This document shows positions 1,288 to 44,974 of a DNA stretch of 44,974 nt, one piece after another. The position numbers and the translations under genes were made by a program. The notes under the pieces were generated by a model. That model saw nothing but the letters and a program-made list of their open reading frames with translations, was not told where the DNA came from and did not search any database. Each line of letters begins with the position of its first letter. Within the stretch, counting starts at the first letter, position 1. Source of the stretch: a virus; IMG/VR virus record IMGVR_UViG_3300033145_000588, positions 1-44,974 of that record; one strand, given 5' to 3'.

Positions 1288-1689
1288 TCACCTATTATTT
1301 TTTAAGTAATGTATTTCATAATGACAATTTTTACATAGCAATATGCATTTATTTAATTCATTTACTATATCTTCAGTTTTTCGTCTTATGGTTAAAGATG
1401 AAGTTGGAAAGTGTTTATCTTCTGGATTGACATGATGAAAATCTAATGAACTGTTGCATTTGTTATAACCACAGATTGAACATCCGTTAATCTTTAAATT
1501 ATCCAACATTTTACAATTATTTATATATCTATTTTTTTCTCGTTGCTTAATTTTTTCTTTATTTGTATTTCTATAGATTCGTGTTTTTTCTAATATCTCA
1601 ATTTTATTTTTTGCATATCTTTTTTTAGCTAAAACACTCAATCTATTTTTATTTCGTTTATAATAATTCTTTTCATATTCCGTTGACAT
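1288..1689 (-). CDS. HNH endonuclease, free-standing (homing type)
   Basis: The protein has 133 residues. Its N-terminal half is lysine- and tyrosine-rich, and the C-terminal HNH/zinc-binding region shows 'GCSICGYNKC', 'LDFHHVNP' and 'CILLCKNCHYEIH'. It is a close paralogue of the gene at 30717-31103. The ATG at 1689 lies only 2 nt after the 3' end of tRNA-Ala, so there is no room for a ribosome binding site. An ATG at 1698 would lie inside the tRNA and is less likely. The gene sits between tail tube and tail chaperones, where it looks like an insertion. It may mobilise itself and the tRNA (inference). Confidence 0.85.
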   Translation of the reverse strand: MSTEYEKNYYKRNKNRLSVLAKKRYAKNKIEILEKTRIYRNTNKEKIKQREKNRYINNCKMLDNLKINGCSICGYNKCNSSLDFHHVNPEDKHFPTSSLTIRRKTEDIVNELNKCILLCKNCHYEIHYLKNNR

Positions 1690-1691
1690 AG

Positions 1692-1763
1692 TGGACATGT
1701 CGGAACTCGAATCCGAAGTCGCCTACTTGCAAAGCAGGTATGTTACCATTACACCACAAGCCC
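1692..1763 (-). tRNA. tRNA-Ala (UGC)
   Basis: A complete cloverleaf can be drawn by hand. The acceptor GGGCTTG/CATGTCC has one U-U mismatch and carries the G3-U70 alanine identity pair. The D arm is GTGT/ACAT with AATGGTA in the loop. The anticodon arm is CCTGC-TTTGCAA-GTAGG with anticodon TGC, and the T arm is TCGGA-TTCGAGT-TCCGA. The discriminator is A73. CCA is not encoded. It follows the tail tube gene and its hairpin, and ends 2 nt before the HNH start codon. Confidence 0.9.
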
Positions 1764-1776
1764 ATTTAAAAAATAA

Positions 1777-1796
1777 AAAGAGGGATGAACCTCTTT
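1777..1796 (-). terminator. Hairpin with U-tract after tail tube gene
   Basis: On the minus strand AAAGAGG pairs with CCTCTTT around a 6-nt loop, overlaps the tail tube stop codon, and is followed by a run of T (TTATTTTTT). It could terminate or pause transcription, or protect a processed 3' end just before tRNA-Ala. Confidence 0.6.
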
Positions 1797-2709
1797 ACAG
1801 TGTTGACGAACTTACAACATTTGAACATTCACTAACGCTTGACGTATGCGATGAGAACGGTCCAGAAGTTGACATCAAATCACCAGATATGTTGACCTCA
1901 AACTCACCAGATTTCCACTTACAACCTGGAATTGTTAATCTCGGATGAGCAACACCAGTAGCACCTAAGTCGATTACAACATTAAACTCTTTTTGTGTCA
2001 TAATCTCACCCCAATGCTTTCCACCACCTTCGTCTAGTGAAATATCTATCGTTCCGTCAATATCTCTCGCACCTTCAATACAGTATTGTTTGACCAACGA
2101 ATCATGGTCCCACTTGTCGATAAGATTGTGTTCAAATGTGATGTCTATAGAATCCACAATGTATGCAAAGTCAGCATCGTTTTTAGTAATACCACCTGCA
2201 ATATTGAATGCCTGATAAGCACCTGCTAATGCTGTAGGTGCTACACCCACTGGTGATGTTGCAGTTGTTGCACTTTTAACTGAAAAGTCAATAGTTATAA
2301 CATACTCAGTATTGAAACTTGCTGCAACTCTCACAGTTTTTGCTTTACAACCTACCATCTCAAAGAATGTTCTATCTGTCGCTGTTTCCACATTCCAGTT
2401 TGTACCAAGTTCAAAGTACAGTGATTGTAGTTTACCGTACACATCCCTATCTACAACATCATCAATGAGTGTATCATCAGATTGTGGTATATACTCAAGA
2501 TGAAATACAGGGTCAGTACATTGTTCAAGTAACGAACACGCACAAGGCGAATCTATGCCTCTTAATTTTTTATGTTTATCGTTGATACCAGGTCTTGCAA
2601 CTAAAACTTTACATGATACTGGAAGTGTTGCACCGCTTGCACCACCACCATAAGTTGATTCAACCCAATACCAAAGTGAGCCTCTAAATGGCAAGCCAAG
2701 CTCTGCCAT
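1795..2709 (-). CDS. Major tail tube protein
   Basis: This 304-residue beta-rich protein lies after the neck genes and before the chaperones and tape measure, the tail tube position. It begins 'MAELGLPFRGSLWYWVESTY' and has long alternating beta strands with few charged helices, as expected for a tube subunit. It has several cysteines near residues 50-65. Its start lies one base after a 13-codon leader ORF, so it is probably translated by coupling. The upstream leader is identical over 26 bp to that of the capsid gene, pointing to matched high expression. No sheath gene follows, which favours a non-contractile tail. Confidence 0.8.
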   Translation of the reverse strand: MAELGLPFRGSLWYWVESTYGGGASGATLPVSCKVLVARPGINDKHKKLRGIDSPCACSLLEQCTDPVFHLEYIPQSDDTLIDDVVDRDVYGKLQSLYFELGTNWNVETATDRTFFEMVGCKAKTVRVAASFNTEYVITIDFSVKSATTATSPVGVAPTALAGAYQAFNIAGGITKNDADFAYIVDSIDITFEHNLIDKWDHDSLVKQYCIEGARDIDGTIDISLDEGGGKHWGEIMTQKEFNVVIDLGATGVAHPRLTIPGCKWKSGEFEVNISGDLMSTSGPFSSHTSSVSECSNVVSSSTL

Positions 2710-4260: not shown

Positions 4261-4950
4261 TTATTCACTAACCGAATCCCAAAAATCATCTTGGTTCTTT
4301 TGATATTTAAATATGCACAACGCACATCTGAATACGCTATAGAACTTTTTAAGTTCATCGTATGATTTTTCTTCAATCTTCATTTTTCCGTCACGTATTT
4401 GCAGTACAACAGCACCATCCAATTTGATACCTGTCATAAGTTCAAACGTGAATACATAAGCTGCAAGTTGTATAAAGAAATCTGGATATATCGTCTTGCT
4501 TGTTTTCCAATCGAATACAACATGTGCATGTTTACCTAGTTTTGGTAAGTCAGCATATCCAATGAAATCTGTAGTACCTGCAATACCTAGAACATCATTC
4601 CATAGCTTTTGCTCAAGTGCTTCCGCTTTTATATCATATTTTTCTTTTGCTTTGAAAAATAAATCCAGCGAATCTTGTGTTTCAGTATCATAATTAGATG
4701 CGTTAACCTTATGCCCTTTTAATGATACTTCAATTAGCTTGTGAAAGTTTGTTCCAAATGTTGCACGTGCTTTCATTATCTGATTTGCTTTTGCAGCACC
4801 AACAGATGCTCGCCAGTAGTTTAATCCAGGTTGATTTATTGCACCCTTAACTCTTGTAACTCTGAAATACTTTTTCCCGTCAATAATATACGAATCACTA
4901 TCGACAAGAAATTCCAGAGGAACATCTATTGACCAATCTTTTTTTAACAT
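4261..4950 (-). CDS. PD-(D/E)XK nuclease (RecB/Cas4-like)
   Basis: This 229-residue protein has the motif order of RecB-family exonucleases: H70 in 'GTNFH', D128 in 'AGTTDFIGY', D147-x-K149 in 'VVFDWKTS', and Q161 in 'FIQLAAY'. Such enzymes cut DNA ends in recombination or replication. It is out of place between the capsid and neck genes. Its ATG is one base after the 3' end of tRNA-Thr and has no ribosome binding site of its own, so translation may depend on tRNA processing (inference). Confidence 0.85.
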   Translation of the reverse strand: MLKKDWSIDVPLEFLVDSDSYIIDGKKYFRVTRVKGAINQPGLNYWRASVGAAKANQIMKARATFGTNFHKLIEVSLKGHKVNASNYDTETQDSLDLFFKAKEKYDIKAEALEQKLWNDVLGIAGTTDFIGYADLPKLGKHAHVVFDWKTSKTIYPDFFIQLAAYVFTFELMTGIKLDGAVVLQIRDGKMKIEEKSYDELKKFYSVFRCALCIFKYQKNQDDFWDSVSE

Positions 4951-4951
4951 A

Positions 4952-5024
4952 AGCCGACACTCTGCATCGAACAGAGGACATATCCTTACAAGGGATGCAT
5001 TTTACCAATCTAAACTATATCGGC
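4952..5024 (-). tRNA. tRNA-Thr (UGU)
   Basis: The cloverleaf is complete. The acceptor is GCCGATA/TGTCGGC (7 pairs with one G-U) and the D arm GTTT/AAAT has GG in the loop. The anticodon loop is CTTGTAA (anticodon TGT) on a stem with one mismatch at 27-43. The T arm is CTCTG-TTCGATG-CAGAG. G1-C72, C2-G71 and discriminator U73 match archaeal tRNA-Thr; bacterial tRNA-Thr normally has A73. CCA is not encoded. It follows the capsid gene and ends one base before the nuclease ATG. Confidence 0.9.
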
Positions 5025-5040: not shown

Positions 5041-5057
5041 GGTAGGATATACCTACC
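5041..5057 (-). terminator. Hairpin between capsid stop and tRNA-Thr
   Basis: GGTAGG pairs with CCTACC around ATATA/TATAT. On the minus strand it is followed by ACTTTTATTC. It lies 10 bases after the capsid stop and 16 before tRNA-Thr, mirroring the hairpin after the tail tube gene. Confidence 0.55.
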
Positions 5058-5067
5058 TGTTTCATGC

Positions 5068-6354
5068 TTATGGGTTTACAACGTGACCGATAGCACCTGT
5101 ATCCAATGCTGAAATAGCAACGTAAGTTCTCATAACTAACTTAGTTGAATCACATTCAATGGGGTCTTTGTCAGTTAACAAGTGTGGTCTTTTACCATAT
5201 GCTTCTCCAACTGCACGCTTTGGGTCAAGCAATACAACTATGGGTGCATCGTCAGTATTGGTACAAGCCGTAGCACCACAGTATTCGATAACCTTAATTT
5301 CGCCTATTTTAGCGAGCTTGTTACCTTCCATGCTAATGTTATTTACCCAAGGTGGGGGGTTAACTCCTTCTTTGTATTTCATATACAAAGCAACTCTTGG
5401 ATGCATAATAGCATAGAATCCATCTTTACCATATCCAGCAGCACGCATTCTAGCTTCCAACTGAATTATCTCTTTGTAAAGATTTGCACCATATCTGCAA
5501 CATGTAGTTGTTGGTTCAGCAGGGTCACAAGTAAATGATGTGTCAGATGTTTCAGTATATCCAGGCGTAGCACCACTAATTGCTGTCCAAATTAATGCAT
5601 CTAATCCAGTAATGTATGCTTGGCTCATTGACTCTATAATCGCAGATTTCAATGAATCTCCAACATCAAATATGTCAAGTTCACATATGACTTTATAAAC
5701 ATCATATCTTGCAAGTGTTAACGTGTGTGTAGCAAATACGTTTGATGCACAGCTTGAACATTCACAGGAACCTAACGCACTACCGATTGAACTAGCGTTG
5801 ATTGTTTTAATTTGAACTGATAAACCGTTACCAGCGTTGATGTCACATCCTCGCATTGTAATCACACCAGCTAGTTGTCTACCACAGTTTACAGCTTGCC
5901 AAATCAAATCACAGTAAACATCAGCAGGCGACCATGCACTAACATCATCGCTACAACCAGTATCGGCATCAGTAAATGCGAATCCCATATCATCAGTTAC
6001 AAGTGCAACATCTTTGTATGCACTATAGTTAACGCCTTTTGCTTTGAGCCACTTGTCATGGAACACTGCCCAATCGCCTTTTGGTTTATCTTGTGATGTT
6101 TGACCACCATCAGGGTCAACGCCAGTTGCATCTGGTGTTTGTATGTTTAATTTTTCAGCGAACTCAGCAAAGAGTTGTTCTTTCTCTACGATTTTGTTAG
6201 CTTCCATTTGGTCAGCATCTACTTTTGCTTTCGCATCAGCATCGGCTTTTTCTTTTGCCTCATTGCTTGTCTTTAAAAAAGCAACTTTTTTTAAGAGTTC
6301 GGCTTTATACTCTGCCTCAATCTCTTCTAGGGTTTTTTCCCCTTCATCTGTCAT
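5068..6354 (-). CDS. Major capsid protein (HK97 fold)
   Basis: The protein has 428 residues. The first 90 are charged and helical, like an HK97 delta domain that scaffolds and is then cut off. From about residue 95 the body has typical capsid spacing, with 'WSPADVYCDLIWQAV', 'LARYDVYKVICELDI' and a P-domain-like stretch 'GFYAIMHPRVALYMKYKEGV'. It follows the protease gene. It has many cysteines, unusual for a capsid protein. Translation starts within the 26-bp leader shared with the tail tube gene, and the protease ORF ends inside that leader. Confidence 0.88.
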   Translation of the reverse strand: MTDEGEKTLEEIEAEYKAELLKKVAFLKTSNEAKEKADADAKAKVDADQMEANKIVEKEQLFAEFAEKLNIQTPDATGVDPDGGQTSQDKPKGDWAVFHDKWLKAKGVNYSAYKDVALVTDDMGFAFTDADTGCSDDVSAWSPADVYCDLIWQAVNCGRQLAGVITMRGCDINAGNGLSVQIKTINASSIGSALGSCECSSCASNVFATHTLTLARYDVYKVICELDIFDVGDSLKSAIIESMSQAYITGLDALIWTAISGATPGYTETSDTSFTCDPAEPTTTCCRYGANLYKEIIQLEARMRAAGYGKDGFYAIMHPRVALYMKYKEGVNPPPWVNNISMEGNKLAKIGEIKVIEYCGATACTNTDDAPIVVLLDPKRAVGEAYGKRPHLLTDKDPIECDSTKLVMRTYVAISALDTGAIGHVVNP

Positions 6355-8920: not shown

Positions 8921-8964
8921 TCAAAAGCCAAGGATTTGAACCTTGAGTAAAACCTTTACTTTTG
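8921..8964 (-). ncRNA. tRNA-like acceptor/T-arm minihelix
   Basis: On the minus strand CAAAAGT pairs with GCTTTTG (7 bp), and the inner arm CAAGG-TTCAAAT-CCTTG is a perfect consensus T arm followed by A in the discriminator position. Only 12 nt replace the D and anticodon arms. It overlaps the stop codon of the gp10-like gene. It could be a deleted tRNA or a minimal substrate for tRNA 3' processing. A second, shorter hairpin (AGTAAA/TTTACT) competes with the acceptor. Confidence 0.45.
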
Positions 8965-12249: not shown

Positions 12250-12259
12250 AGTATATAAA
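12250..12259 (+). promoter_or_regulatory. Archaeal TATA box of the early block
   Basis: AGTATATAAA occurs here and again at 19221 and 20521. The distance to the ATG at 12284 (about 25 nt from the TATA box) places transcription start at or next to the start codon, suggesting a leaderless message. The palindromic TATATA may also serve the divergent terminase gene. Confidence 0.65.
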
Positions 12260-12283
12260 GGTTTCGGTTCAAGTTTTGAAACG

Positions 12284-30455: not shown

Positions 30456-30529
30456 CTAGCAGAACATTAGGAGTTCGTTCCATGCTCAGTGAGTATGGTA
30501 TGTGGTGGGTTCGATTCCCCCCTGCTAAA
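30456..30529 (+). tRNA. tRNA-like element (degenerate tRNA)
   Basis: The acceptor CTAGCAG/CTGCTAA has 6 of 7 pairs. The anticodon-like arm is CATGC-TCAGTGA-GTATG, without U33. The T arm GTGGG-TTCGATT-CCCCC has one mismatch. A D-arm-like GAAC-ATTAGGA-GTTC overlaps the acceptor by one base. Total length is 74 nt. It is not a normal tRNA, but its 3' end lies 2 nt before an ATG, as for the two true tRNAs. A palindrome, TAGGTTATAACCTA, overlaps its 5' end. Confidence 0.4.
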
Positions 30530-30720: not shown

Positions 30721-31103
30721 AAGAAGAAAGACGACTATATAAAAAACGGTATTATTTAAAACATAAAGATGCAATACGTCAGTACCAAAAAATATATCGT
30801 CAAATGAATAAAGAAAAATTAAATAAAAAATGTAGATTATATTATAAAAATCATTGTGGACAACAGCAAGAAATGCGACAAATCATAATGCATAATTTAA
30901 AAATAAACGGTTGTGCTATTTGTGGTTATGACAAATGTGATGCTGCGTTGATATTTCATCATGCAAATCCAGACGATAAAAAGTTTGATATGGCACAACG
31001 AATTTTACAAAGAAGCAACAATATAATTATAGATGAATTAAATAAATGCATCTTGCTATGCTGTATTTGCCATAGAGAATTACATCATAACGGTGGTGAT
31101 TAA
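30717..31103 (+). CDS. HNH endonuclease, paralogue of 1288-1689
   Basis: This 128-residue protein has a basic N-terminus and the core 'INGCAICGYDKCDAALIFHH', 'ANPDDKKF' and 'CILLCCICHRELHH'. Aligned by eye it matches the HNH protein at 1288 over nearly its whole length. Both genes lie just downstream of a tRNA or tRNA-like element, on opposite strands and in different transcription blocks. AAAGGAGTG precedes the start. Confidence 0.85.
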   Translation: MKEERRLYKKRYYLKHKDAIRQYQKIYRQMNKEKLNKKCRLYYKNHCGQQQEMRQIIMHNLKINGCAICGYDKCDAALIFHHANPDDKKFDMAQRILQRSNNIIIDELNKCILLCCICHRELHHNGGD

Positions 31104-31971
31104 TATTTCTATACTTGATTGCATCGGAAACACCCCGTTAATGAATATTAATAACATTTATTTCAAATTAGAGGGATTCAATCCAACGGGTAGTACAAAA
31201 GATAGGATAGCAAAGGCAATGATTCTTAATTATATATTAGATGGTAATAAAGAAAGAAAAAATAAACATACAATAGTCGAAGCGACATCTGGAAATACAG
31301 GCATATCTGTGGCAATGGTGTGTTCAGCATTAGGATTAAGATGTCTAATATATGCACCAAGTAACACAAGTAATCTAAAATTAAAAATGATGCAGAAATA
31401 CGGCACAATACCAATTATAACATATAAAACCATTAGTGATTGTATTGATAGAGCTAAAAAAATAGGTGAAGATAAACATTATCATTACCTTGACCAATTC
31501 AACAACAAATATAATGTTAAAGCACAAGAAACAATGGCACAAGAAATACATGATGAACTTACCAGAGAATATGACAATATGTATTGGGGAAGTGAATATT
31601 TTGACCCTAAATACTATCAATCATTACTACCAGATGCAATAGTTGCAGGTGTTGGAACAGGTGGAACAATAATGGGGTTACATAAAGTATTTCCAGATGC
31701 CAAGTTGTTTATAATACAGGTTCCAGATTCAGAACACATAGAGGGAATATGTGACGGTGTAAAGTTATCACTGATACCTAAAAAGTTAAGAATGGCAACA
31801 ATCAACGTGCCATATACACAGGCATATCTAACAGCAAAGTGGCTTACTGAAAAGCACGGTATTCACTGTGGAATTTCCAGTGGTGCAAACTACTACGCTG
31901 CAACTGTAATACAAAAGATGTTTGATAAAATATTAACCGTACTACCAGATTCAGGAGTAAGATATTTATGA
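31093..31971 (+). CDS. Cysteine synthase-like PLP enzyme
   Basis: The protein has about 292 residues and fold type II PLP features in order: 'FKLEGFNPTGSTKDRIAKAM' (PLP lysine near residue 36), 'EATSGNTGISVAMVCSALGL' (phosphate/asparagine loop), 'GVGTGGTIMG', 'GISSGANYYAA' and the end 'TVLPDSGVRYL'. These match O-acetylserine/O-phosphoserine sulfhydrylases. The start is GTG at 31093 or 31096 within GGTGGTG, overlapping the HNH stop. It could raise cysteine supply for the many cysteine-rich viral proteins (inference). Confidence 0.88.
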   Translation: MVINISILDCIGNTPLMNINNIYFKLEGFNPTGSTKDRIAKAMILNYILDGNKERKNKHTIVEATSGNTGISVAMVCSALGLRCLIYAPSNTSNLKLKMMQKYGTIPIITYKTISDCIDRAKKIGEDKHYHYLDQFNNKYNVKAQETMAQEIHDELTREYDNMYWGSEYFDPKYYQSLLPDAIVAGVGTGGTIMGLHKVFPDAKLFIIQVPDSEHIEGICDGVKLSLIPKKLRMATINVPYTQAYLTAKWLTEKHGIHCGISSGANYYAATVIQKMFDKILTVLPDSGVRYL

Positions 31972-42565: not shown

Positions 42566-44974
42566 TTATCGCAACCTATATTTTGACACACCACGCCTAT
42601 CGGATAGTTGTGTTTGCATTGCAATTGCAAGTGTGGCAGCAAATTTTTCTACATCATAATCATTGGAAACTTCTGCGTTAACAGTAATACTAATTTGAAA
42701 TACATCGCCACCAGAACTAGCACCAGCAGGTGTTATTCTTTCACCACGATGTACCATTGCGAGTTGTGTTCTCGGAACAGAATCAATACCATCCTTGTAT
42801 TGTGGTATTGGTAATCCTAAATCTAACATCAACTGTTGAAGTCGAGTTGGTGGTCTTTTTGTTTTTACATCAGCACCTATGTCAATACCCATTGTGCTTT
42901 GGAAATCTTGCAATCTACCCATAGCATCAATTGCTTCATCAAGTACATTGACACCATACAGGTCACGATACATTTCTGCAAGTTCTGGTTTATCTGATAT
43001 TGCCTTTAGTAAATCAAGATATGCATTATGTTCACTGGCTAACGATGCAATCTCTTCCTTTTCCCACGTACTATATTTACTAAGCATTTCTTCTTTGGAT
43101 GTATACAGTTCTTCTAAGTCACGAATCTCATCATCACGAATATCTTTTAATAGGAACAAGTTGAACTTTGCTTTATCATTATATTCATCAAGTATGCCCT
43201 TTGCTTTTTCATACTCTGTCCCTAATTTATCAATATGTGTTTCTGTTATAGCATCTTCAAGGTTAATCGTTTTTTCCATCTGGTCAATTCTAAACTGAGC
43301 ATTTTCAATTTCTATTTTCTTGATGGTTTTTTCTTCGCTACGTGATTGTCCACGCCTACGCATCATTCCCTTGAGTTGAATCTTCATTATTTGAAGATTA
43401 TTTCGTCTAATTGCAGCAGTGAGTTCATCGTTTTCCTGTTTGAACTTACTAGATAGTTCAGCAGCTTCCTTTGTTGCCTGATTATAACCATGCATTGTAT
43501 TGATAATATCTTGCATGGACCCATCATAGCTGTCGATACCACCTATCATTTTCCAAATATCAGAATCGAACCACTCAATAGCTGAAAATTCCGCACCATA
43601 CTTAATTGCCATAGTTGAAAATTGAGAAAATCTATCGAAAAATGTTTCACTTGTTTTGGTTTCAATTTGCCAATCTAGTTTACCAGTAAATGTTTGACCA
43701 CTCAATGCAGTATATGTATCTTCAACTTCATGTCTTAATTCTTTCATTGCATTTTGAAGTTCTACGATGTTTGTTTGATGTGCATTCATTGATTGAGAAA
43801 GGTCATCTAAACCTGCTGACATATAATCAAATGCAGGTTGTAATGCTTCCTGTGTTGTACCTATAGCTACCAGTTGAGCATCATATTTTTCAAGTTCTGC
43901 ATTTACTTCATCCAATCTTGTTTTAACTGTCGCTAAAGATGCACCAGTATATGTAGATGGTGCAAAAGATACACCTTTTTCTTTTGCAAGTTCAGCAGTT
44001 TCAAGTTCCATTTTTTCAATCAACAATGGTATCATTGTTGTACCGATACCTCTTCTTTCAGATTCGAGTTCCATGTACTTATTTATCTGTTCCCAAGGAA
44101 CAACCTTATCAATAATGTCTTTTGCTGACATTGTTTCATCGGTTGTTGTTAATTCTGACATCAGTGTACCTTTACCAGATAGTGCTTCTTGTGTTTTTAG
44201 CAATGATAAATATGCTGAGTTAAGTTCAAGTATCCTATCATCAAATTGCCTAACTGCTTTATTGGCATCTCCACCAGATAAAAGTGAACCCCACCATAAC
44301 GATGTCTTTTTCCACCATATATCAACACCCGACCATGCAGCACCTATTCGTCTTTCAAGATGTTGCATAGATTGAGCAAGTATATCAACCTGCATTTGGG
44401 TAATAGCTGTCATCTTTGTCATAGCCATCTCTGTTTGACCTGCTGACCTCTCCATTAATCCCAAATCAGTAATTATTCCACCGATACCTTCATCACTGGT
44501 AACTGCCATAACAACACGAAGGGAACGCATATTACGAATCATCTCAGGTAAAATTGTACCACCATGTTCATCAACTGCACGATTCAATTCTTGCATGAAT
44601 CCAGTTAATCCCTTAACACGCAGTGCTAATCCACTCATATCGACATCATACTTTCGTGCTGCATCCGCAGCTTGTTTTGTTGGTGAAACGATATTTTGAA
44701 TTGTAAGTGCTAAACCACGACTTGCCATATCAACATGCAAACCCATACGAGTAACTGTTGCCAGTATTGCAGCTATCTCATCAAAAGCCACACCAGCAGC
44801 AGCAGCTATGGGTGTTACATATCCAATAGCAGATGCTAAGTCCTCAAAAACTAACTTACCACGCCTGATGGTTTGGAAAAAAACATCCGAAATATGTTGT
44901 GCTTGTGATACTGTCATACCGTAAGCGTTTAAAACCGATGTGAAAATATCAACGGAAGTTGAAACATCTGCTAA
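42566..44974 (-). CDS. Tape measure protein, C-terminal part (begins at 678)
   Basis: This is residues 227-990 of the tape measure, together with the 114-bp overlap at the window end. It carries the rest of the TP901 core ('FFQTIRRGKLVFEDLASAIG', 'AAAGVAFDEIAAILATVTR', 'SRGLALTIQNIVSPTKQAAD'), then long coiled-coil helices and a basic end near 'QLSDRRGVSKYRLR'. An ATG at 44917 lies inside the frame and is not the start. Confidence 0.93.
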   Translation of the reverse strand, partial: LADVSTSVDIFTSVLNAYGMTVSQAQHISDVFFQTIRRGKLVFEDLASAIGYVTPIAAAAGVAFDEIAAILATVTRMGLHVDMASRGLALTIQNIVSPTKQAADAARKYDVDMSGLALRVKGLTGFMQELNRAVDEHGGTILPEMIRNMRSLRVVMAVTSDEGIGGIITDLGLMERSAGQTEMAMTKMTAITQMQVDILAQSMQHLERRIGAAWSGVDIWWKKTSLWWGSLLSGGDANKAVRQFDDRILELNSAYLSLLKTQEALSGKGTLMSELTTTDETMSAKDIIDKVVPWEQINKYMELESERRGIGTTMIPLLIEKMELETAELAKEKGVSFAPSTYTGASLATVKTRLDEVNAELEKYDAQLVAIGTTQEALQPAFDYMSAGLDDLSQSMNAHQTNIVELQNAMKELRHEVEDTYTALSGQTFTGKLDWQIETKTSETFFDRFSQFSTMAIKYGAEFSAIEWFDSDIWKMIGGIDSYDGSMQDIINTMHGYNQATKEAAELSSKFKQENDELTAAIRRNNLQIMKIQLKGMMRRRGQSRSEEKTIKKIEIENAQFRIDQMEKTINLEDAITETHIDKLGTEYEKAKGILDEYNDKAKFNLFLLKDIRDDEIRDLEELYTSKEEMLSKYSTWEKEEIASLASEHNAYLDLLKAISDKPELAEMYRDLYGVNVLDEAIDAMGRLQDFQSTMGIDIGADVKTKRPPTRLQQLMLDLGLPIPQYKDGIDSVPRTQLAMVHRGERITPAGASSGGDVFQISITVNAEVSNDYDVEKFAATLAIAMQTQLSDRRGVSKYRLR

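Follow-up and report, generated by a model that had tools for sequence, protein, structure and literature searches.

Viral tRNAs and armless tRNA-like elements abutting start codons as candidate makers of leaderless mRNA 5' ends

In a family of viruses whose host is probably archaeal, tRNAs and reduced tRNA-like elements end one or two nucleotides before the start codons of different genes, next to a nuclease gene, an HNH endonuclease gene, or small open reading frames. The best explanation, to which we assign a probability of about two in three, is that tRNase Z, together with RNase P, would excise these elements from longer transcripts and leave leaderless mRNAs behind. The case from which the analysis starts lies in a window of 44,974 nt, the whole stretch of DNA analysed, which is one entire IMG/VR virus record.

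Results

A tRNA-Thr with the anticodon UGU occupies positions 4952..5024 of the (-) strand, as found by ARAGORN and by the Rfam model RF00005, whose full-length match scores 50.7 bits (cut-off 29); in its acceptor stem (GCCGAUA/UGUCGGC) every pair is formed. Along this strand, the discriminator U4952 is followed by a single T at 4951 and then by the ATG (4950-4948) of a nuclease gene, and cleavage by tRNase Z is predicted to make the lone U at 4951 (-) the 5' end of the nuclease mRNA. An earlier note on this DNA had placed the discriminator at 4952 and the ATG at 4950; ARAGORN, Rfam, and the sequence agree with both positions, and the covariance-model search that it called for puts the 3' end of the tRNA at 4952. 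The tRNA has U73, G1-C72, and C2-G71, the archaeal identity elements for threonine (PMC9976931), and ACA is the most frequent threonine codon in the late genes of the window. With the identity elements in place for charging, the tRNA has a putative role in decoding. Comparison by BLAST returned nothing from plasmids and, from phages, one Citrobacter tRNA.

Upstream of the tRNA is a terminator-like hairpin (GGTAGG-TATAT-CCTACC with a T-rich tail, 5041..5057 (-)), found by a scan, and beyond it the gene of the probable major capsid protein (5068..6354 (-)), which is named from its position in the genome and had no match in PHROG or Pfam. This presumed capsid gene is kept 3' of the portal gene in 23 relatives, and a similar hairpin stands 3' of it in nearly all relatives.

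The gene downstream (4261..4950 (-), 229 aa) encodes a PD-(D/E)XK exonuclease (PHROG 298, E 6.8e-40). An alignment of 23 relatives contains the catalytic motif, with invariant E..D..DWK..Q positions, and a profile comparison links it weakly and remotely to MGME1 in the PDB (E 0.004). A scan with this single protein recovered no relatives; TerL, and then alignments, did. Judging from the coding sequence and its conservation, the ATG at 4950 is very probably the true start. The closest relative, 74% identical, starts at the same codon. A later start is ruled out by the conserved block, whose invariant residues begin at Y21, ahead of the next in-frame ATG at residue 59. A start further upstream is ruled out as well, because the 17 open codons preceding the ATG include no ATG, GTG, or TTG.

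The family to which the window belongs comprises about 43 IMG/VR records, in which the genes of TerL, portal, presumed capsid, nuclease, and tail tube occur in the same order, and relatives known by their nuclease only. An archaeal BRE/TATA promoter (CCGAAACCTTTATATA, 12252..12267 (-)) lies upstream of TerL and the late operon, and a BRE-like GAAA with TTTAWATA precedes TerL in most of 21 records. The tRNA-Gly of one relative (G016) has the discriminator A73, which is an archaeal and eukaryal trait and not a bacterial one (PMC9976931, PMC6097841). Given these promoter and tRNA signs, we judge that the host of the family is probably archaeal, and the archaeal setting that the earlier note had supposed thereby gains support. 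A weak match to Hjc points the same way. A search of GTDB genomes for a related provirus found none. Comparison of TerL, primase, and DNA polymerase gave distant bacterial phages as the closest isolates, which are uninformative on the host.

The window holds a second junction, absent from the earlier note. A tRNA-Ala (UGC) with G3-U70 and A73, at 1692..1763 (-) (ARAGORN; 58.0 bits in Rfam against a cut-off of 29), is followed after its discriminator by CT and by the ATG at 1689 of an HNH endonuclease gene (1288..1689 (-); PHROG 3106 HNH, E 9e-20). The mechanically called frame of this gene opens at an ATG at 1698, inside the acceptor stem of the tRNA. The scan also detected a terminator-like hairpin (1777..1796 (-)) between the tail-tube gene and this tRNA, so that both tRNAs of the window come after such a hairpin behind a structural gene. 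The site 3' of the tail-tube gene (1788-1692 (-) in the window, 15360-15412 in L002, about 19889 in L030) bears a tRNA-Ala or its remnant; the remnant in L002 consists of the ends of a tRNA-Ala, lacks the anticodon arm, and is followed by GAGG and an ATG.

Similar junctions recur among the relatives. L087 and L095, whose TerL is about 50% identical, have another tRNA-Thr between the capsid gene and the nuclease gene, ending GGCT-T-ATG; this ATG opens a 42-aa frame with a stop that touches or overlaps the start of the nuclease gene. In L092, a tRNA-Thr nearly the same as that of the window precedes a 39-aa frame, and a tRNA-Gly is followed by the CT-ATG of a 257-aa frame. The one-base U spacer is found in L087, L095, L092, L031/L105, L002, L141, L148, and L174. 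The genes behind the junction thus vary (nuclease, 39-42-aa frame, HNH, 257-aa frame) while the junction stays, which suggests that it is the junction itself that has been kept, not one gene pair, and its recurrence in diverged relatives with different downstream frames points to more than chance. A frame of 39-45 aa (..YLDxxTGxxIxVYPWSS..) precedes the nuclease in L087, L095, L092, L094, L090, L093, L097, L098, L011, and L013, and is absent from the window. Its stop often overlaps the nuclease ATG (ATGA), an arrangement that suggests translational coupling of the two. Members of the family that have no tRNA element at this place mostly carry AAGG, GAGG, or GGAG before the small frame.

Each of the six canonical tRNAs of the family has an ATG 1-2 nt behind its 3' end. 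When frames of at least 25 aa are counted, the same holds for 10 of 745 CCA-less tRNAs from other viral loci (Fisher p=3e-11); with a threshold of 50 aa, three of the six qualify (p=3e-5). The six do not count as six independent events, for L087 is nearly a copy of L095 and the tRNA-Thr genes of L092 and the window are homologous, and common descent lowers the number of independent cases. A tRNA-Ser called by ARAGORN in L099 was set aside as doubtful, as Rfam gave no confirmation. Across the whole collection, a scan for T-ATG behind a consensus T arm returned tRNAs in 75 of 122 of the matches listed at offset 1 and in 26 of 120 of those listed at offset 5; 31 and 8 of the matches listed, respectively, led into frames of at least 50 aa, and only such proportions are given because the totals of the two scans are not comparable. 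The control that the earlier note had called uncommon is indeed rare among viral tRNAs in general, but it is the rule for the canonical tRNAs of this family, and it recurs in the haloarchaeal virus HGTV-1.

HGTV-1 (NC_021328), an unrelated haloarchaeal myovirus, has T-ATG directly behind four of its tRNAs (Val, Arg, Ile, and Ala); the tRNA-Ala junction precedes an annotated HNH gene, one other precedes another annotated coding sequence, and AA-ATG follows another tRNA-Arg. Although the coding sequence at 42595 of this genome is annotated to start 13 nt downstream of the tRNA-Val, a frame of in-frame length already begins at the ATG that a single base separates from this tRNA, so that the annotated gene may be too short. 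The stretches read from coliphage T5 (24 tRNAs) and from the haloarchaeal virus HF2 (four tRNAs) contain no ATG 1-2 nt after a tRNA, and the one ATG that follows a tRNA-Met of Citrobacter phage Tr1 at 2 nt stands behind an encoded CCA. The presence of the pattern in HGTV-1 and its absence from the HF2 and T5 stretches indicate that it is neither confined to the family nor general.

One could read these junctions as the outcome of compact packing and shared ancestry only, with a tRNA module inherited or recombined up to a shared TATG, a spacing devoid of function, and a nuclease made by rare read-through or coupled to another signal. Viral genomes are compact, and the tRNA-Thr of L092 (10974-11045, 72 nt) aligns with that of the window with a single gap and three substitutions, including two that compensate each other in the anticodon stem. 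The two viruses are only about 40% identical in their capsid and nuclease proteins, so that the tRNA looks exchanged as a module. Yet two unrelated tRNAs in the window, the tRNA-Gly of G016, several unrelated reduced elements, and HGTV-1 converge on 1-2 nt, and among the 745 CCA-less viral tRNAs the commonest distance to the following ATG is 14-20 nt, which suits a Shine-Dalgarno leader. We regard this reading as quite improbable.

The reduced elements came to light when 1.03 Mb of family DNA was scanned for T arms. An ATG at offset 1 followed six non-coding and three coding-flagged matches, and one at offset 2 followed four, with none at offsets 0 or 3-6; the counts for seven control loop motifs were 0-2 at any offset. 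At least two of the three coding-flagged matches at offset 1 are true elements; a coding-flagged match in the window, at 43570, falls within a large gene and was rejected as chance. Several matches (L002, L105, L168/L201) turned out to have an acceptor stem and T arm only, not a whole tRNA, and a nuclease scan added such mini elements in L192, L195, L204, L205, and L207, that of L204 reading TTCTTTC-GTTGGAATAAT-CCAAG(TTCGACT)CTTGG-GAAAGGA-T-AT-ATG. Seven elements without D and anticodon arms keep the gap of 1-2 nt to the ATG. Both of their helices show covariation: the T stems form 33 of 35 possible pairs, matched by 2 of 5040 permutations of the halves, and their acceptor stems 45 of 49, equalled in 4 of 5040 permutations with a linker range for the acceptor helix that was picked after the elements had been inspected. 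Being without an anticodon arm, these elements are unable to decode, and their persistence at a fixed distance from the AUG points to processing.

A further element of this build lies in the window at 8921..8964 (-), with the acceptor CAAAAGT/GCTTTTG, the T arm CAAGG(TTCAAAT)CCTTG, and neither D nor anticodon arm. It is followed by the Shine-Dalgarno motif GAGG, with the ATG 18 nt on, and has a counterpart at the equal place in L002, near 7906. These two belong to a class B of tRNA-like elements, followed by GGAG or GAGG and a distant ATG, which also includes elements in L014/L106, L017/L103, L086, and L164. The existence of class B implies that an element does not always make a leaderless message, and that leaderless initiation would be one of two outcomes.

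On the opposite strand of the window, a degenerate tRNA-like element (30456..30529 (+)) ends with A, followed by TA and the ATG of a 62-aa frame. Its sequence (TAGCAG..AACATTAGGAGTT..GGGTTCGATTCCCACCTGCTAAA) is conserved in L123 (G026) and L126 (G036), with a variable middle; the G036 homologue has a compensating change in the acceptor, and both this and the window copy end 1-2 nt before an ATG. G026 has a second tRNA-like element in L158, at about 2480-2560 (-) (GGGCACA..GAGGG(TTCGACT)CCCTC..TGTGCTC), with a stacked acceptor/T helix of 13 bp. Positions 31093-31971 of the window encode a PLP enzyme that resembles cysteine synthase and is carried by the virus; a PALP-family protein is present in several relatives as well.

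The strength of ribosome binding sites differs between starts behind the elements and other starts. Control genes of the family have a median Shine-Dalgarno energy of -7.0 kcal/mol, with 81% at -4 or better, against a median of -3.2 kcal/mol at 17 element-adjacent starts, where 35% reach -4; both window sites are weak (-3.2 and -2.5 kcal/mol). As the other genes of the virus use Shine-Dalgarno sites, the host would not be a specialist of leaderless translation. The earlier note had held that no ribosome binding site can exist upstream of the nuclease. A good one does appear to be lacking, but a site is possible inside the tRNA, where a weak GAGUG lies 7 nt before the ATG (-3.2 kcal/mol). Five of the 17 sites have a Shine-Dalgarno-like stretch at about -5.2 to -5.6 kcal/mol in the 3' strand of the element itself (the mini-element clade of L195, L201, L205, and L207, and L095/L087), and the GGAG and GAGG in the acceptor strands of mini elements suggest a route by which a tRNA could turn into an ordinary leader.

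These motifs are what speaks for a message translated uncut, in which a weak site in the T-stem and acceptor strand (GAGUG in the window, GGUG in L087/L095, GGAG or GAGG in L195, L201, L205, and L207), or the fold itself, would position the ribosome, the tRNA being a structured leader that may hide the ribosome site until opened. The predicted fold of the precursor, in which the 5' leader UUUAAU pairs with bases around and after the AUG, is compatible with such a leader. We nevertheless consider it rather unlikely. The window site is buried in helices as well as weak, the values in L141, L148, L174, and L152 are -0.4 to 0.8, and at least five class A elements lack any Shine-Dalgarno-like match. 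Canonical tRNAs, moreover, need processing to function, and this would part the site from the gene. An uncut leader also leaves unexplained why the ATG lies 1-2 nt from the cleavage point, and not at Shine-Dalgarno spacing from the motif.

Archaea commonly make leaderless primary transcripts (PMC4247193), and a promoter in or near the tRNA could start transcription at U4951 without any processing. This is very improbable here, because the region about 26 nt upstream of 4951, taken up by the anticodon and T arms of the tRNA, has no TTTAWATA-like box, whereas real TATA/BRE boxes do occur upstream of TerL; and what is conserved while the sequence changes is the tRNA fold, not a promoter sequence.

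Discussion

The comparative evidence makes excision by tRNase Z and RNase P the best explanation for the family, and cleavage to a leaderless U-AUG message the best explanation for the nuclease. The late transcript would bear tRNAs or tRNA-like elements directly before some coding regions, having read through the terminator-like hairpin, if co-transcription is as we infer. RNase P would act at the 5' side and tRNase Z at the 3' side, freeing the tRNA or mini element, and the cut after the discriminator would give messages starting U-AUG (nuclease) or CU-AUG (HNH), which the host ribosome would translate as leaderless mRNAs. In Thermococcus, 5' UTRs of up to 8 nt count as leaderless (PMC4247193), and the 5' end predicted for the nuclease mRNA is unstructured around the AUG. 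The tRNA would thus be a punctuation mark and 5'-end maker, which in the canonical cases also serves as a tRNA. We propose that elements which lost decoding retained the acceptor stem, the T arm, and their precise distance from the AUG because a processing signal needs nothing more. Expression of the nuclease might then depend on maturation of the tRNA, which would amount to a regulatory role. A broader proposal, which we find possible but advance tentatively and would not yet favour, is that this family of archaeal tailed viruses uses tRNAs and armless minihelices as a general means of making the 5' ends of leaderless mRNAs, that decayed tRNAs are selected only as tRNase Z sites, that DNA-processing genes beside the capsid gene are tied to host tRNA maturation, and that at least one other archaeal virus does likewise.

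Several known systems resemble parts of this arrangement. First, in animal mitochondria, where RNase P and RNase Z act on tRNA punctuation (a model summarised in PMC10941002) and mammalian mRNAs have no 5' UTR (PMC5203842), coding regions abut tRNAs in such a way that excision yields leaderless mRNAs. In the window, too, reading frames abut the tRNA 3' ends, at 1 and 2 nt, with no room for a leader, but the virus has archaeal promoters and mostly Shine-Dalgarno genes, only some of which stand behind tRNAs, and punctuation there is a prediction. Second, in Haloferax volcanii, tRNase Z cleaves a tRNA-like t-element and thereby makes the 5' end of 5S rRNA (PMC4326828; PMC3296008). In such t-elements, which are also present in plant mitochondria, an acceptor stem and T arm act as signals for tRNase Z or RNase P. 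The seven mini elements and the window element at 8921-8964 have the same build, with the acceptor stacked on the T arm and the other arms dispensable, while the window tRNA-Thr is canonical and falls outside this class; the viral elements differ in that what they would release downstream is an mRNA, with the predicted cut falling 1-2 nt before its AUG. Third, in tRNA-snoRNA co-transcripts of Thermococcus and Nanoarchaeum, separation of the tRNA from the RNA behind it is inferred to be the work of RNase Z (PMC4247193); the RNA released there is a snoRNA and not an mRNA. Fourth, HGTV-1 shares the order tRNA-T-ATG four times and the tRNA-Ala before HNH, but it is a myovirus of another family, compared here on its tRNAs alone, and only part of its 36 tRNAs have the junction. 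Our literature search, which did not cover the HGTV-1 genome paper, found no report naming tRNA-to-AUG junctions in archaeal viruses. What is new, and well supported by comparison of the sequences, would be the use of tRNA punctuation and t-elements in viral mRNAs, armless elements included.

The host of HGTV-1 is already grown, which makes the idea directly testable. If it is true, 1) tRNA punctuation of the mitochondrial type would also operate in viruses of prokaryotes; 2) leaderless mRNAs could arise by processing instead of by transcription start; 3) viral tRNAs would gain a second role besides decoding; 4) the persistence of non-decoding tRNA fragments in viral genomes would find an explanation; and 5) the mini elements would reveal which parts of a tRNA the processing signal needs.
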